Shown: positions 3,718-15,544 of the stretch, in pieces
How positions within the stretch are numbered: the first letter of the stretch is position 1
Layout: every line of letters begins with the position of its first letter
Source: a virus
IMG/VR virus record: IMGVR_UViG_3300009504_000041
Span: 1-21,638 of that record
Direction: 5' to 3' (one strand)
DNA length: 21,638 nt
Notes under the pieces: model-generated
The model's input: the letters and a program-made list of their open reading frames with translations, nothing else
Told to the model about the DNA's origin: nothing
Databases searched by the model: none
Program-made: the position numbers and the translations under genes

Positions 3718-3896
3718 TACAGGTCCACCACTTGTACTTGATTAGGTTCAACGGCTACGAACTTACGTCGACGGCCATCGTATACTTCAACGGATACATC
3801 AAGGTCACCCTTCATCCGCTTGATTGGATTCTTGAGGTACGAGGGACGAACTACCGTCAACCGAACCTTCTGCGCTTTGTCCGCTTTTGTTACCAT
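3717..3896 (-). CDS. Small basic protein of unknown function
   Basis: The product has 59 aa: a basic N-terminus (MVTKADKAQKVRLTVVRPSY, then LKNPIKRMKGD) and a beta-rich end (VSVEVYDGRRRKFVAVEPNQ). Its TAA overlaps the ATG of the next gene (TAATG), good evidence that it is translated. The ATG at 3896 has only a weak GAGA-type binding site and overlaps the MazG-like gene by 92 nt; an internal ATG at 3815 would reduce the overlap to 11 nt but would remove the basic half, which looks protein-like. Charge and size suggest nucleic-acid binding, but no motif proves it. Confidence 0.6.
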   Translation of the reverse strand: MVTKADKAQKVRLTVVRPSYLKNPIKRMKGDLDVSVEVYDGRRRKFVAVEPNQVQVVDL

Positions 3897-4206
3897 AACG
3901 TTTCTCTAGTTTTTCCATGTTCTTATGTAGGGCATCAACGAGGCTGATGCCTTGCATGTCAGCTACCCTTGCCAGGTAGTACATAACGTCCCCTATCTCT
4001 AGGGTCATCTCTTCTTTGTCTACTACTACGCTCCTGTTCGGAGTGTAGCGTGACTTCTTAAACGGATCAACAATCTCTGCTACCTCAGTGACTAGGCCGA
4101 ATAGAGCGTGTGTCATCTGATCCTCGGGATCAATGCTGTTCGTCCATACGTCTCTAGTCCACGCTTGGTAGTAAGACAGGTCGTCTACCGATTCAATCCT
4201 TTCCAT
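3805..4206 (-). CDS. MazG-like nucleotide pyrophosphohydrolase
   Basis: The product has 133 aa. The MazG helix pair carries E41-x2-E44 (LVTEVAEI) and E70-x2-D73 (LEIGDVMYYLARVAD), the metal-binding residues of all-alpha NTP pyrophosphatases, which split an NTP or dNTP into the monophosphate and pyrophosphate. A loop rich in Ser, Arg and Val between the helices, and a disordered Ser/Gln-rich tail after residue 105, are extra. GGAG lies 7 nt before the ATG; the start overlaps endonuclease I by 14 nt. In phages the family is linked to nucleotide-pool control or to lowering host (p)ppGpp signalling. It lies near a dATP/dGTP diphosphohydrolase-domain gene, which favours the first. Confidence 0.85.
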   Translation of the reverse strand: MERIESVDDLSYYQAWTRDVWTNSIDPEDQMTHALFGLVTEVAEIVDPFKKSRYTPNRSVVVDKEEMTLEIGDVMYYLARVADMQGISLVDALHKNMEKLEKRYGNKSGQSAEGSVDGSSSLVPQESNQADEG

Positions 4207-7504: not shown

Positions 7505-7625
7505 GGGTATCTCCTCTATCAAATGGGCACCCTGGATAGGAACAATCCTCAAAGGAATTGGTTCTACCACAAAGGGTGCAGGCTTTAGTGACAGTCGGAC
7601 CACGTGACCCCCTCGTTAATGTCAA
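7485..7625 (-). CDS. Possible small Cys-pair (zinc knuckle-like) protein, start unclear
   Basis: The frame from 7667 down to 7485 holds KACTLCGRTNSFEDCSYPGC followed by PFDRGD: a C-x2-C-x8-C-x4-C pattern that looks like a small zinc-binding module and is unlikely to be a chance by-product. It lies across the junction between the polymerase and exonuclease genes. No convincing start exists: a TTG at 7625 has AGGA only 2 nt upstream, and the ATG at 7667 is deep in the polymerase gene with no binding site. The coordinates use the TTG and are a guess. It could be a real short gene with a weak start, or a relic. Confidence 0.35.
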   Translation of the reverse strand: MTLTRGSRGPTVTKACTLCGRTNSFEDCSYPGCPFDRGDTRGVDQK

Positions 7626-9429
7626 TGTCCTGCGGGCACCAGAGATTAAACTTCTTATTAACTGCATCTATACTGAGCCTCGCTTGGTCACGGAAGGTAC
7701 TAACCATTGCGTCAGGTACCAAGAACTGCACTTCATCGTGCATCGTAGTCACTAGCAGTATGCCGGTGTCACCCACTCTCTCGAACAGGTTGTTGATGAA
7801 GTTCTTCATCACGATAGCTTCGAGGGATTGGAGCAGGTAGTTAAGCAGCATGTGCTTAGCTCGTACCCACACAGCCCTGCCGTCAAGCCCGGTGATGTAG
7901 CCCTTCGTTTTCCACTCTGCCTCCAGTATCCGGATGAGGCCCGGCAGTGAAGGGAGACCTCTGAAGTACTCTTTACGTACCTCTGCTGCCGTTACCTTGG
8001 TTATCCCTAGGTCACTGGCTAGCTTCTCATCACTCGCACCGAAGATGATGGAGTAGTTCAGCTTCTTCCCGTCTGCCCTAGTAGCCAGGCCAGCCAGGTC
8101 TGCTGCGTACTGGTGCTGGTCACCCTCAGTAACTACCAGCCTATAGTTCTCATCCCTCAGGTAGTGAGCCAGGCCGTACACTTGGCAGGACTTAAGGTCG
8201 ATCCCTATCCTGGTGTACCCAGGTAAGCTGATGAAGCAGGACCGTAGCTCTTTGCCATACGGCCTACCGTTGCCAGGTACGTTGACTACAGTACGGTGGG
8301 TCATGCGACCAGTGGGTGTACCCAAAGGGTTAGCCCCTGCTGTCAGTCTACCGTCTGGCCTTATGTCACGCATGAACCCGGCAAGCATACCGGCCCTGTG
8401 TGACAGCATCAACCGCTCAACGATCTTAGCGCCTACCTCTTGGTAGCCCTCGGGCCATTGGCACGACTCGAGTGAGTCGAGGGTGAGCTTCGGTGATGTT
8501 CGTACCTTGTTACCCATCAGGTCACGGGCAGGCTTACCAGTGTTAGGGTCCTTCTTGAAGTTCCACTCGGTTGGCTTCCACCCTATAGACAAGAGGTACT
8601 CTTTCACCTGCTTGTCGCTGCCTATATTCATCGGAGCCTTTCGGACAATGAGGTCCGTGCGATACTCCTGGTCTGCTCCAAAGCTATCTCCGTAATACTT
8701 AAGTGCCTGAGCAGTAGGTTTGCCTTGCTTCGTATACTGCTTTGAGGGCCAGGTAAGTTGAGCCGTCTTGGGAAGTGCCACCTCAGGAAGGAGAGGCACC
8801 ACCTCTTCATCAATCTCACGGATGCGAGCTTGAAGCTCAAACCACAACCCCCATACCAGTGGCGTATCAACTGGTACTCCGTTGAGTTCCTGCTGAGTGA
8901 TGTGTCTAGCAATTGTCTGCTCCGTTTCGATAGCGTCTAGCCAACTTACCTTAGCCTGTCGCCCCTCCTCCTGAAGTGCTCGGTAGGTCGAGACGTTAAT
9001 CTGGACATCCTCCGAACAGCGATGTAACATCTCAGGAGAATACACAGACCAATCACTGTGGTCAGGCTTACCGCGACCGCAGCGATAACCCCATGCAGCC
9101 AATGAGTGGGGGCCAATATTGCCAGGGGCACTAGCAGGCACAAAACGATCAGGCTTAAAGAGCCTAGAGTAGACCAGAGTATCGGTGATTTTGACATTAG
9201 ATCGGGGCTCCCACCCGTATAGCTTCTTCAGCAAGGGTAGATCATACCCTACGATGTTGTGACCAATGAGTTCATCCGCGGTATTCAGGTAATCAATGCC
9301 CTGTTGTAGATCGTAAGGCGTAAAGCTGTTCGCTACATTTTCGGATACATCGTGGGTACAGATACACCATACTTGAGTGGCATCGGGCAGTAGCCCGTCA
9401 GCCTCAAGGTCGAATACAATCTTACTCAT
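7585..9429 (-). CDS. T7-like family A DNA polymerase
   Basis: The product has 614 aa, shorter than T7 gp5 (704). The N-terminal 3'-5' exonuclease is complete: Asp7/Glu9 (FDLEADG), Asp63 (HNIVGYD), Asp141 (CSEDVQINV). The polymerase domain has TGRMTHRTVVNVPG, KELRSCF, motif A at 410-418 (IDLKSCQVY), motif B at 451-464 (Arg451, Lys455, Tyr459, Phe463, FGASDEKL) and motif C HDEV (His564, Asp565). Motif A is odd: the usual steric-gate Glu (DxSxxE) is Gln416, and the Arg after it is Tyr418. Tyr459 is at the T7 Tyr526 position, while Phe463 replaces the usual Tyr530. GAGGTG lies 5 nt before the ATG. It copies the phage genome with the helicase and SSB. Confidence 0.95.
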   Translation of the reverse strand: MSKIVFDLEADGLLPDATQVWCICTHDVSENVANSFTPYDLQQGIDYLNTADELIGHNIVGYDLPLLKKLYGWEPRSNVKITDTLVYSRLFKPDRFVPASAPGNIGPHSLAAWGYRCGRGKPDHSDWSVYSPEMLHRCSEDVQINVSTYRALQEEGRQAKVSWLDAIETEQTIARHITQQELNGVPVDTPLVWGLWFELQARIREIDEEVVPLLPEVALPKTAQLTWPSKQYTKQGKPTAQALKYYGDSFGADQEYRTDLIVRKAPMNIGSDKQVKEYLLSIGWKPTEWNFKKDPNTGKPARDLMGNKVRTSPKLTLDSLESCQWPEGYQEVGAKIVERLMLSHRAGMLAGFMRDIRPDGRLTAGANPLGTPTGRMTHRTVVNVPGNGRPYGKELRSCFISLPGYTRIGIDLKSCQVYGLAHYLRDENYRLVVTEGDQHQYAADLAGLATRADGKKLNYSIIFGASDEKLASDLGITKVTAAEVRKEYFRGLPSLPGLIRILEAEWKTKGYITGLDGRAVWVRAKHMLLNYLLQSLEAIVMKNFINNLFERVGDTGILLVTTMHDEVQFLVPDAMVSTFRDQARLSIDAVNKKFNLWCPQDIDINEGVTWSDCH

Positions 9430-10401: not shown

Positions 10402-10601
10402 CAGTACCTCCGCAGGCTTGTCTGTGGCAGGGTCTCGAACACTCCCTTGTCTCGCAGCGTTTCAAACGGTACGCAAGGGGCATGTCGTATAATCTTGACC
10501 CAATCTCCTGGCTCAGTTGGTCCCACATTGTAGTCCGAAAATGCTCGCTCAACCTCGACCACCCTACCTGTCCCCAAGTCTCGCCATTCATACGTCGGCA
10601 T
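10401..10601 (-). CDS. Small protein, FmdB-like N-terminus without its zinc cysteines
   Basis: The product has 66 aa. The opening MPTYEWRDLGTGRVVEVERA recalls the FmdB/zinc-ribbon opening (MPxYEY...C..C....E), but the two N-terminal Cys of that family are absent, so any zinc function is lost or the likeness is convergent. GGAG lies 7 nt before the ATG; the start overlaps the dCMP deaminase end by 14 nt. The second half (GPTEPGDWVKIIRHAPCVPF) has one Cys. Function unknown. Confidence 0.6.
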   Translation of the reverse strand: MPTYEWRDLGTGRVVEVERAFSDYNVGPTEPGDWVKIIRHAPCVPFETLRDKGVFETLPQTSLRRY

Positions 10602-11109
10602 CTACGTTCTCCATGACTACTCCCGCCTCTTTAAGCATGTGCCTTCCTTCGTCTTGACCTTCAGCATACTTACCTTTGCCGGGCCACGCTCGGTTGACAC
10701 CAACAACACGGGCGATACGAGACTGGATAATAGCCTTGGCACAATCATTACAAATCTTATCAACTGAGTAGTTGAAGTACATGGTAGCACCCTTGAGCCT
10801 TACCCCTGCACCAGCCGCGTTATAGATCGCGTTACGTTCTGCATGTTCTACCCACTCGTACTTCCCTGGCCGCTCCCATCGGTCGTTGAGGGTGGTGACG
10901 TATCCATCTCCTTCGTGGTCGTCGTGGTCGTCGAGCCCCACCATAAGCCTTTCCGTTTCAGCCACGCCTCGAGGGAATCCATTGAAACCAGTAGCCAGTA
11001 CTTCATTGTCCTCTCCTACTATGACAGCCCCACACTTCGTGCTCGGGTCCTTACTCCATTGAGCTACGAGGTCAGCCATCTTAACGAATCGTTCAGCCCA
11101 CTTACTCAC
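10588..11109 (-). CDS. dCMP deaminase
   Basis: The product has 173 aa from a GTG with GGAG 8 nt upstream. It has the cytidine/deoxycytidylate deaminase fold: DPSTKCGAVIV, GFNGFPRGV, the zinc and catalytic site HAERNA (His89, Glu91), and Cys120-x2-Cys123 (KICNDCAKAI). The usual Pro before the first of these Cys is Ile here; zinc ligands are intact. An insert of about 25 residues rich in Asp, Gly and His (DDHDDHEGDGY) sits between the Gly-rich loop and the active site, a place where related phage enzymes also differ. It turns dCMP into dUMP, feeding dTMP synthesis. No thymidylate synthase is in the window, so the host or a gene outside must do the next step. Confidence 0.92.
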   Translation of the reverse strand: MSKWAERFVKMADLVAQWSKDPSTKCGAVIVGEDNEVLATGFNGFPRGVAETERLMVGLDDHDDHEGDGYVTTLNDRWERPGKYEWVEHAERNAIYNAAGAGVRLKGATMYFNYSVDKICNDCAKAIIQSRIARVVGVNRAWPGKGKYAEGQDEGRHMLKEAGVVMENVDADV

Positions 11110-14107: not shown

Positions 14108-14391
14108 GGACCTACCCATTCAGAGGGGTCAAACCACAAGATCTCCGCTCTTATACACCGTTGGAAGTGATCAAGGATTTTGTCCTTGCTCCATACCTCC
14201 TCGGTCTCAAGGTCAGAGAGGTACTCGGTCAACATTTCCCAAGAGTCCTTGTGCATTACGTCCAAGGAGTACTCCTTAGGATACGGTTGGTCATCGTGAA
14301 CATCAATACGACCTACTCTCCACCAGTTACCGTACTTGTCTATAAAGGCAGAGCTTATAGGCCCCATGTAATTCAAGAAGTATGTCACCAT
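14104..14391 (-). CDS. Small acidic protein of unknown function
   Basis: The product has 95 aa: beta-like N-terminal half (YMGPISSAFIDKYGNWWRVG, RIDVHDDQPYPKEY) and helical, acidic C-terminal half (DSWEMLTEYLSDLETEEVWS). GGAG lies 6 nt before the ATG. It is the first gene of the dense replication unit and lies 17 nt downstream of the 3' end of a tRNA-like gene, so its message may be freed by processing of that RNA. No family recognised. Confidence 0.7.
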   Translation of the reverse strand: MVTYFLNYMGPISSAFIDKYGNWWRVGRIDVHDDQPYPKEYSLDVMHKDSWEMLTEYLSDLETEEVWSKDKILDHFQRCIRAEILWFDPSEWVGP

Positions 14392-14408
14392 ACGTGTCTC
14401 CAGTAAGG

Positions 14409-14477
14409 TGTCCGTGCTCGGAGTCGAACCGAGATCTCCCTGTACAATCAGGGGCTCTACCGTTGAGCTACACGGGC
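14409..14477 (-). tRNA. tRNA gene with an atypical anticodon arm
   Basis: On the - strand: acceptor GCCCGTG/CACGGAC (one C-A mismatch at 2:71), U8-A9, a canonical D-arm (GCTC, loop AACGGTA, GAGC), and a perfect T-arm CTCGG-TTCGACT-CCGAG, then A73 and CC but no full CCA. The anticodon stem CCCTG/CAGGG is perfect but closes a loop of only six bases (ATTGTA), base 26 is missing and the variable loop is four bases, so the gene is 69 nt. With U33 placed normally the anticodon would read TGT (Thr); GTA (Tyr) is the other choice. A tandem tRNA-like gene follows 6 nt upstream. It is either a degenerate tRNA or a non-standard one. Confidence 0.6.
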
Positions 14478-14483
14478 AGTGGG

Positions 14484-14555
14484 TGGGGTTGTGAGGGATT
14501 CGAACCCTCTTACTATAACCTTATCGGCCTGTCTCACCCTTTGACTTACAACCCC
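14484..14555 (-). tRNA. tRNA-like gene, anticodon arm not canonical
   Basis: On the - strand: a perfect 7-bp acceptor GGGGTTG/CAACCCC, U8-A9, D-arm GTC-AAAGGGTGA-GAC with the conserved GG, and a perfect T-arm GAGGG-TTCGAAT-CCCTC, followed by A73 and CCC. Between the D- and T-arms only 20 nt remain, with at best a 4-bp stem GGCC/GGTT (two G.U) and a 5-nt loop GATAA, so no anticodon can be read with confidence (GAT, Ile, is the nearest). There is one extra A between T-stem and acceptor. The element is tandem with the previous one, which supports both being real tRNA-derived genes. It probably does not decode normally. Confidence 0.5.
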
Positions 14556-14598
14556 GCAGGCGGGCCACTACAAGGCCGTGACCCAAGGCGCTAGGACT

Positions 14599-15048: not shown

Positions 15049-15198
15049 TCATAGGTAGCGCAGTGTCTTTCGGACTATTCCCCTTATTGTGTAGCGATTT
15101 CGATGCAGCCACAAGAGCGCAGCACTCGACACTAACAACAAGGTGACCAAGCCAGCATGGATTAGTTCTCCGGTATCACCGGAGCTAAGTCCAAGCAT
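15049..15198 (-). CDS. Small single-span membrane protein
   Basis: The product has 49 aa, starting MLGLSSGDTGELIHAG, with one membrane span (LVTLLLVSSAALLWL) and a strongly basic end (HRNRYTIRGIVRKTLRYL), predicting a cytoplasmic C-terminus. AAGGAGGT stands 4 nt before the ATG, which decides this start over a longer open frame reaching 15270. It lies between a tRNA-like element and the long inverted repeat. Role unknown. Confidence 0.75.
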   Translation of the reverse strand: MLGLSSGDTGELIHAGLVTLLLVSSAALLWLHRNRYTIRGIVRKTLRYL

Positions 15199-15265
15199 AA
15201 CACCTCCTTGGTTATTGGACAACGAAACTTCTATTGTGTTCCCGGCTACCCGGTTGCAGGGGCTA

Positions 15266-15386
15266 TTCACAGGGAGGGATTCGAACCCTCATGATCCGCT
15301 CGTGCCTGTACCCTGGTACTGTCTAAGCAAAGGGGACGTGATTACGACACGCCGCCGGGGGACGCCCCGGTCTCGGCCACCCGTTC
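15266..15386 (-). ncRNA. tRNA-like element with enlarged D-loop and variable region
   Basis: The T-arm at 15274-15290 is the same 17-mer as in the tRNA-like gene at 14484 (GAGGG-TTCGAAT-CCCTC). Next to it, CCTGTGA can pair for five of seven bases with GAACGGG at 15380-15386 (one G.U), and TGGCC plus GGC resemble a class II D-arm. But the D-loop contains an extra CCGGGG/CCCCGG hairpin; the anticodon-like stem GGCGTG/CACGTC closes a 7-nt loop TCGTAAT without U33; and a GTACC/GGTAC hairpin fills the variable region. At 121 nt it is too long for a tRNA. It fills the space between two membrane-peptide genes. Confidence 0.45.
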
Positions 15387-15403
15387 TCGTGGTCACCGTT
15401 GTT

Positions 15404-15544
15404 TCAGGTTCGGCGAAGCAGGACACGAACTCTGCTTGCTACCCGTTGCCCGATGTTAAGAACACCGTTGACAGTAGCGTGACATGCTAAGTATGCAGTC
15501 ACGTACAACAGAAGCGCGACAGTTTCTATGACTAATAATTCCAT
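15404..15544 (-). CDS. Small membrane protein, translated by coupling
   Basis: The product has 46 aa: MELLVIETVALLLYVTAYLA is a membrane span or uncleaved signal, and the rest is basic (NIGQRVASRVRVLLRRT). Its own ATG has no binding site; it overlaps by one base (TAATG) the stop of a 7-codon leader that has a near-perfect site. Expression by translational coupling is therefore likely. A leader TAA in this place makes an accidental origin unlikely. Function unknown. Confidence 0.6.
   Translation of the reverse strand: MELLVIETVALLLYVTAYLACHATVNGVLNIGQRVASRVRVLLRRT

Follow-up and report, generated by a model that had tools for sequence, protein, structure and literature searches.

A glutamine sugar gate coupled to a palm-helix glutamate in a T7-like phage DNA polymerase and its relatives

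The gate glutamate of motif A normally helps to exclude ribonucleotides from DNA. According to the available text of PMC4882331, this residue (Glu710 in Klenow-type enzymes) positions the incoming nucleotide and forms a hydrogen bond with Tyr766 in the closed state, a long helix of the palm is said to contact both residues, and the two of them are called universally conserved in family A. The equivalent gate in T7 DNA polymerase is Glu480, which aligns with Glu710 in the accessible part of PMC13228545. As for the tyrosine of helix O, the portion available of PMC8599892 presents a phenylalanine at this position as the one characteristic change common to both clades of 2-aminoadenine polymerases, the tyrosine being otherwise strictly conserved, and phiVC8 DpoZ is one enzyme with such a phenylalanine. 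Viral PolA proteins have been treated by Nasko 2018 and Keown 2022 (PMC6302109 and PMC9069017), whose accessible text mentions position 762 often, while term searches of that text returned no 766, no "steric" and, outside reference numbers, no 710.

Term searches of the accessible text of PMC9324360, PMC13228545, PMC4882331, PMC7581432, PMC12926913, PMC9069017, PMC6302109, PMC8599892 and PMC4215692 returned no statement on a natural glutamine gate. In the open-access literature, no study of a family A polymerase carrying E710Q, E615Q or E480Q was found by title, and neither the enzymology of any glutamine-gate member nor a description of the coupled form presented below, with a glutamine gate and a helix glutamate, was found. 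TgoT is a family B polymerase. It is to this enzyme that the E658Q mutation of PMC9738464 belongs in the text available of that paper.

The polymerase of the window and its motif A

The window, by which is meant the whole stretch of DNA that was analysed, is an IMG/VR virus record of 21,638 bases and represents a genome fragment. Its polymerase gene contains the following features:

7585..9429, minus strand: T7-like family A DNA polymerase of 614 residues with an N-terminal 3'-5' exonuclease (intact open reading frame, HMMER, Pfam, fold)
8191..8193, minus strand: Lys413 (AAG), a rare residue (codon read, survey)
8185..8187, minus strand: Cys415 (TGC), at the position of Taq Ile614 (alignment, codon read)
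8182..8184, minus strand: Gln416 (CAA), at the gate position of T7 Glu480 and Klenow Glu710 (alignment, codon read)
8176..8178, minus strand: Tyr418 (TAC), in place of a near-invariant arginine (codon read, survey)
8158..8202, minus strand: motif A, residues 410-424, IDLKSCQVYGLAHYL, within the stretch 8149-8220 marked earlier
8041..8043, minus strand: Phe463 (TTC) of helix O, at the position of T7 Tyr530 and Klenow Tyr766 (alignment, codon read)
7732..7740, minus strand: catalytic His-Asp-Glu of motif C (564-566), intact (translation, alignment)

The protein matches the Pfam family DNA_pol_A (PF00476) with an E-value of 1.6e-24 and 87 bits against a cut-off of 34.3, and T7 DNA polymerase is its best PDB match in HMMER (E 1.6e-35). 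Its AlphaFold2 model, for which the input alignment held 59 sequences (that of the window and 58 from IMG/VR loci), has a mean pLDDT of 93.3 and a pTM of 0.90, and T7 polymerase structures are its best fold matches in Foldseek, with a query TM of 0.78-0.83 among the T7 chains listed. The domain order, the exonuclease and polymerase motifs and a C-terminal W..CH are common to the window enzyme and T7 gp5, whereas gp5 is longer (704 residues) and differs at five positions: the gate, its helix O partner, the palm helix position discussed below, the residue preceding the gate and the motif A arginine are Glu, Tyr, Gly, Leu and Arg in gp5, and Gln, Phe, Glu, Cys and Tyr in the window. Asp411 of motif A and His564, Asp565 and Glu566 of motif C are all kept, and so are Arg375, Lys455, Tyr459 and the exonuclease acids Asp7, Glu9, Asp63 and Asp141; with the catalytic residues of both activities retained, the enzyme does not look dead. 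The best full-length matches of the window polymerase in the phage collection are Zobellviridae polymerases, at about 32-34% identity, no polymerase above about 40% identity was found in the phage collection, IMG/VR or the genome contigs, the last of these yielded no relative of it, and megablast of the window against 50,697 phage records gave no match.

HMMER pairs motif A, IDLKSCQVYGLAHYL, with GIDASGLELRCLAHFM of T7, so that Asp411 is kept, Gln416 stands opposite Glu480 and Tyr418 opposite the arginine two residues further on, while in helix O 'NYSIIFGAS' is aligned with 'IYGFLYGAG' of T7, with Phe463 opposite Tyr530. The first-pass annotation had singled out Gln416 and Tyr418 beside a conserved Asp411, as well as Phe463 in place of the usual tyrosine, and both the alignments and the codons confirm these readings; its view that the altered residues belong to the sugar pocket is borne out by homology. 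Beyond the residues it named, Lys413, Cys415, Tyr531 and, above all, Glu537 deserve attention.

Two of the motif A residues are unusual in the survey of phage polymerases described in the next section. Tyr418 is the only tyrosine among the 376 rows with a readable gate, 366 of which have arginine, and since no arginine codon can be reached from TAC by fewer than two base changes, one read error would not produce it. Lys413 is found in seven glutamine-gate rows, the window included, and in one glutamate-gate row. Both residues may reflect lineage-specific tuning. Tyr418 was also considered as the mark of a special function, an idea that was set aside because loss of the arginine recurs in other phages of both gate types: it is also missing from Ounavirinae, H101 and 1.161.O, which have the glutamine gate, and from four fetched phages with the glutamate gate (Vequintavirinae, ICP1 and a Phapecoctavirus).

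Coupling of the gate to a glutamate of the palm helix

A total of 461 loci was gathered, and removal of identical and contained polymerase frames left 388 rows, which include some gene fragments. All counts given for these rows are counts among the matches listed and not prevalences, as some search patterns favoured one or the other form and the queries of later searches were drawn from members already found. The gate is glutamine in 172 rows, glutamate in 203, aspartate in one and unreadable in 12. Read together with the partner in helix O, the rows comprise 198 Glu/Tyr, 153 Gln/Phe, 13 Gln/Tyr, three Glu/Phe, one Gln/Leu and one Asp/Tyr, with 19 incomplete. A subset of 220 rows was fetched by N-terminal patterns or by peptides that avoid motif A, motif B and residues Gln534-Glu537, and it comprises 104 Glu/Tyr, 97 Gln/Phe, 13 Gln/Tyr and one Gln/Leu, with five incomplete. 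The combination seen in the window is thus no peculiarity of this phage but prevails across a large clade, which is part of what the first-pass annotation had named as counting against its reading. As to the universal conservation of the glutamate and the tyrosine stated in the accessible text of PMC4882331, the window departs from it in both Gln416 and Phe463, and, given a glutamine gate in 172 of 388 phage rows, it is this statement that has to yield and not the membership of these enzymes in family A.

The Gln/Phe form is well represented among named phages. Seven of the eight Zobellviridae polymerases fetched (from CVT22, RIO-1 and Vibrio and Klebsiella phages) have the glutamine gate, the phenylalanine partner and Cys at 415 as in the window, but keep the arginine at 418 and have Ala or Ser at 413. 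The eighth, from phage O4, is filed in the same family but has the Glu/Tyr/Gly form, its polymerase being of another lineage. All three polymerases read from the Ounavirinae (Felixounavirus and Kolesnikvirus; L444 and L446) and Shandongvirus H101 (L460) resemble the window in having Gln/Phe together with the helix glutamate, whereas they are longer (771-889 aligned residues) and have Val or Ser at the 418 position. Gln/Phe is also the form of Vibrio phage 1.161.O (L461). Finally, with only the window protein as query, four IMG/VR loci were retrieved, of which L001, the closest at 35%, and L004 have Glu/Tyr, and L002 and L003 have Gln/Phe.

The residue that follows the gate most faithfully lies on the palm, where three further features are found:

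7837..7839, minus strand: Tyr531 (survey)
7828..7830, minus strand: Gln534, the counterpart of T7 Gln615 in the HMMER alignment, without variation in alignments A1 and A8
7819..7821, minus strand: Glu537 (GAA) of the palm helix, three residues after Gln534 and aligned with T7 Gly618 (HMMER alignment, survey, model)

The Klenow counterparts of the Gln534 and Glu537 positions are presumably Gln849 and Ala852. In the AlphaFold2 model, residues 525-552 form a predicted long helix that carries Glu537, and we infer that it is the same palm helix as the one of PMC4882331.

All 164 glutamine-gate rows that are readable at this position have Glu537 (eight are unreadable), whereas none of the 197 readable glutamate-gate rows does (Gly in 192, Ala in three, Cys and Ser in one each; six unreadable), and the single aspartate-gate row has Ser. 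The same split is obtained without exception in the 220-row subset, at 109 against 100 rows with 11 incomplete. When 557 well-filled columns were scored across 99 representatives for how well each predicts glutamine or glutamate at the gate, residue 537 was the only column besides the gate itself to do so without error (97 of the 99 being readable there), followed by 463 and 415 with 98% each, 600 with 96%, 523 with 95% and 531 with 94%. The first-pass annotation thus saw that the gate glutamate is gone but missed Glu537, and with this residue what is seen is a coupled change and not a simple loss.

Coupling of the gate with its other neighbours is looser. Position 415 reads Asn in 73, Cys in 71, Ala in 23, Tyr in two, Ile in two and Ser in one of the 172 glutamine-gate rows, and Leu in 198, Ile in three and Val and Gln in one each of the 203 glutamate-gate rows, while position 531 is Tyr in 160 of 165 readable glutamine-gate rows and Thr or Ser in 185 of 197 glutamate-gate rows. 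Phenylalanine at the 463 position was counted in 161 of the 388 rows (153 with glutamine, three with glutamate, five in gene fragments) and is not obligatory, as tyrosine accompanies the glutamine gate in 13 phage rows and phenylalanine the glutamate gate in three. The idea of Gln and Phe as a strict pair was dropped in view of these 13 rows and of bacteria with Gln/Tyr.

Some rows of the survey merit a separate remark. L131, L132 and L137 have a glutamate gate, a phenylalanine partner and a helix glycine, so that the partner has changed without a change of the gate, and L454 (Lauvirus lau218) is a phage in which an aspartate gate is found with a helix serine. In L066, L068, L069 and L070, the polymerase frame is interrupted immediately ahead of residue 463 and continues in a later stretch of the locus, and this break in motif B looks like an intron, an intein or some other insert.

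Recurrence in bacterial Pol I and phylogeny of the phage gate

The pair of glutamine gate and helix glutamate recurs beyond the main phage clade, including in cellular Pol I. A narrow motif A pattern with a glutamine gate retrieved three stretches from a collection of 84,980 species, each represented by a single genome. In a separate genome set, the glutamate form of the same pattern is present in 46 of the 289 genomes that were sampled from one class, so that the glutamine form of this pattern is rare. L463 and L464, both from alphaproteobacterial MAGs, have the glutamine gate with the helix glutamate. L462, from a cyanobacterial MAG with a coverage of 4.9 in its title, combines the glutamine gate with a helix serine and is an exception to the pair; in a sample of its cyanobacterial phylum, the helix-glutamate pattern was found in none of 146. 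When the class sample was searched for the helix glutamate only, three of the 289 genomes were returned, one of them known and two new, and both new ones have a glutamine gate.

Within one alphaproteobacterial order (96 genomes), the helix-glutamate pattern is present in 76 genomes, all of which have the glutamine gate: 74 were detected by the glutamine-gate pattern, which occurred in none outside the 76, and the remaining two read Gln by translation. Each of the 33 bacterial helix-glutamate loci that were translated (three obtained by searching the class sample, and 30 belonging to the 76 genomes of the order) has a glutamine gate and a tyrosine partner. The glutamate-gate pattern is found in 13 genomes of the order, none of which has the helix-glutamate pattern; in each of them the helix position is occupied by Ala, Gly, Asn or Ser. 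Of seven further genomes without either gate pattern, one has an aspartate gate with Thr, one gave weak matches only and five gave no match. The Pol I of the order (G002 group) thus resembles the window polymerase in its glutamine gate and in a glutamate at the same helix position, but has its own tyrosine partner, Ile at 415 and the motif context of a cellular Pol I. An aspartate gate with a helix threonine was read in the alphaproteobacterial Pol I of L511 (genome G451). The Glu/Tyr rule is thus broken, with the same coupling, in a large phage clade whose cultured representatives include CVT22, RIO-1 and a Felixounavirus, and in the majority of the genomes sampled from a single bacterial order.

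For the phage polymerases, the columns of motif A and of helix O were excluded from the trees; column 537 was kept, which can only draw glutamine rows together. Parsimony on a tree of 181 representatives gives two gate changes, a tree of 99 representatives with denser sampling gives three (the main glutamine clade, L380 and L265), and five were counted on a tree of 48 rows. The main glutamine clade has an SH-aLRT of 85 and takes in the window, the Zobellviridae, the Ounavirinae and many IMG/VR contigs. Within it, the window is weakly placed in the 99-representative tree (20), and its grouping as sister to the Zobellviridae has an SH-aLRT of 86 in one tree and of 20 in the denser one. A Glu/Tyr group that was nested in the glutamine clade of the first tree no longer belonged to that clade once sampling was denser, the branches concerned being weak. 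For groups that were named only after the trees had been seen, a single clade of all glutamine rows is rejected on the 48 rows (p-AU 0.018), while the main clade and L380 together are not (p-AU 0.40), and L380 as a separate origin is unsupported. Phages therefore probably account for two origins of the glutamine gate, namely the main clade and L265, both with Glu537.

Possible workings of the altered gate

In a classical family A enzyme, the motif A glutamate supplies the carboxylate of the pocket and, in the closed state, hydrogen-bonds to the tyrosine of the O helix. A lone change of this residue to glutamine would lose the charge and alter the hydrogen bond, and the presence of a coupled glutamate on another helix suggests that the charge has been moved and not lost. 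The side chain of Gln416 may be held by the carboxylate of Glu537, or Glu537 may itself replace the old carboxylate, and the gate would thereby be tied to the palm rather than to the moving fingers. The tyrosine of the fingers could then be free to turn into phenylalanine, the residue seen in most phage members but not in the bacteria. As the bulk of glutamine is similar to that of glutamate, the exclusion of ribonucleotides has probably been maintained, whereas the link between finger closure and nucleotide sensing is probably altered. Judging from the sequence, the reading that we favour with moderate confidence, taken as a whole, is that the window encodes an active T7-like replicative polymerase whose sugar gate has undergone a compensated rewiring, with discrimination probably kept.

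A broader proposal, to which we give slightly less than an even chance, is that these enzymes possess a second, interchangeable gate architecture of family A, in which the pocket carboxylate would reside on the palm helix beside Gln849 (Klenow numbering) and not in motif A. It would have arisen at least three times (in the main phage clade, in L265 and in the alphaproteobacterial order) and would uncouple the sugar gate from the closing of the fingers, with speed, fidelity and sugar choice balanced in a way particular to it. The natural double substitution is a probe for ribonucleotide rejection and for communication between gate and fingers, glutamine-gate polymerases are possibly enzymes with new substrate ranges, and, for annotation, the results suggest as a rule that the gate and the helix position of a polymerase be read jointly.

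Among the alternatives, a relaxed sugar selectivity of the kind suggested by the first-pass annotation, in which the glutamine gate, a polar residue at 415 and Phe463 would together admit ribonucleotides or modified dNTPs, is unlikely. Although Taq positions 614 and 615, which correspond to 415 and 416, recur in directed evolution and 615 is Gly in ribonucleotide-using variants (available text of PMC4215692), it is precisely this glycine that sets the relaxed Taq gate apart from a glutamine, which is about the size of glutamate. The distribution at position 415 would fit such a relaxation, with Cys, Asn or Ala in 167 of 172 glutamine-gate rows against Leu or Ile in 201 of 203 glutamate-gate rows, but the perfectly coupled helix glutamate speaks for retained function. 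MazG and a dCMP deaminase do lie in the same gene run as the polymerase; the tie to nucleotide-pool genes that the first-pass annotation had proposed is nonetheless unsupported, the glutamine gate being found also in the Ounavirinae and in a bacterial order.

It is less likely still that a single ancestral fixation of the glutamine, Glu537 and the phenylalanine accounts for their co-variation by descent alone. Most glutamine rows do form one clade, so that the 164 rows with glutamine and Glu537 are not independent events, parsimony counts as few as two and as many as five gate changes depending on the tree, and the independent-pairs tests had too few pairs for significance to be reachable. Descent is, however, common to all 557 columns, of which 537 alone follows the gate without error, and the pair is seen again both in L265 and in the Pol I of the alphaproteobacterial order, in which glutamate-gate members exist as well, so that an explanation by common ancestry is already weakened. 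Finally, that the enzyme is a DpoZ-type 2-aminoadenine polymerase is highly improbable, since, although Phe463 corresponds to F459 of phiVC8 DpoZ as described in the accessible text of PMC8599892, where this phenylalanine is reported for both DpoZ clades, and although the NCBIfam DpoZ model NF038380 gives a weak match, its 36.1 bits are far below the cut-off of 500 bits, no PurZ-type adenylosuccinate synthetase domain was found by Pfam in the 20 proteins scanned of the window, itself a fragment, and phenylalanine occupies this position in 161 of 388 phage rows, Zobellviridae and Ounavirinae among them.

With regard to the remainder of the window, the same strand encodes further T7-like replication genes (endonuclease I, a 5'-3' exonuclease and a primase-helicase), among which the dCMP deaminase and MazG are located at 10588..11109 and 3805..4206, respectively, on the minus strand. 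A second 3'-5' exonuclease, Rv2179c-like (PF16473; 6863..7603, minus strand), is separate from the exonuclease motifs of the polymerase itself, and its open reading frame, if its earliest possible start is used, shares 19 bases with the end of the polymerase gene. ARAGORN detects one tRNA with an undefined anticodon at 14407..14477 on the minus strand. Close to it, two plus-strand open reading frames (14382..14594 and 15143..15490) read like the spurious peptides to which tRNA genes give rise, and the region around 14407..14477 may represent an unusual or decayed tRNA cluster.
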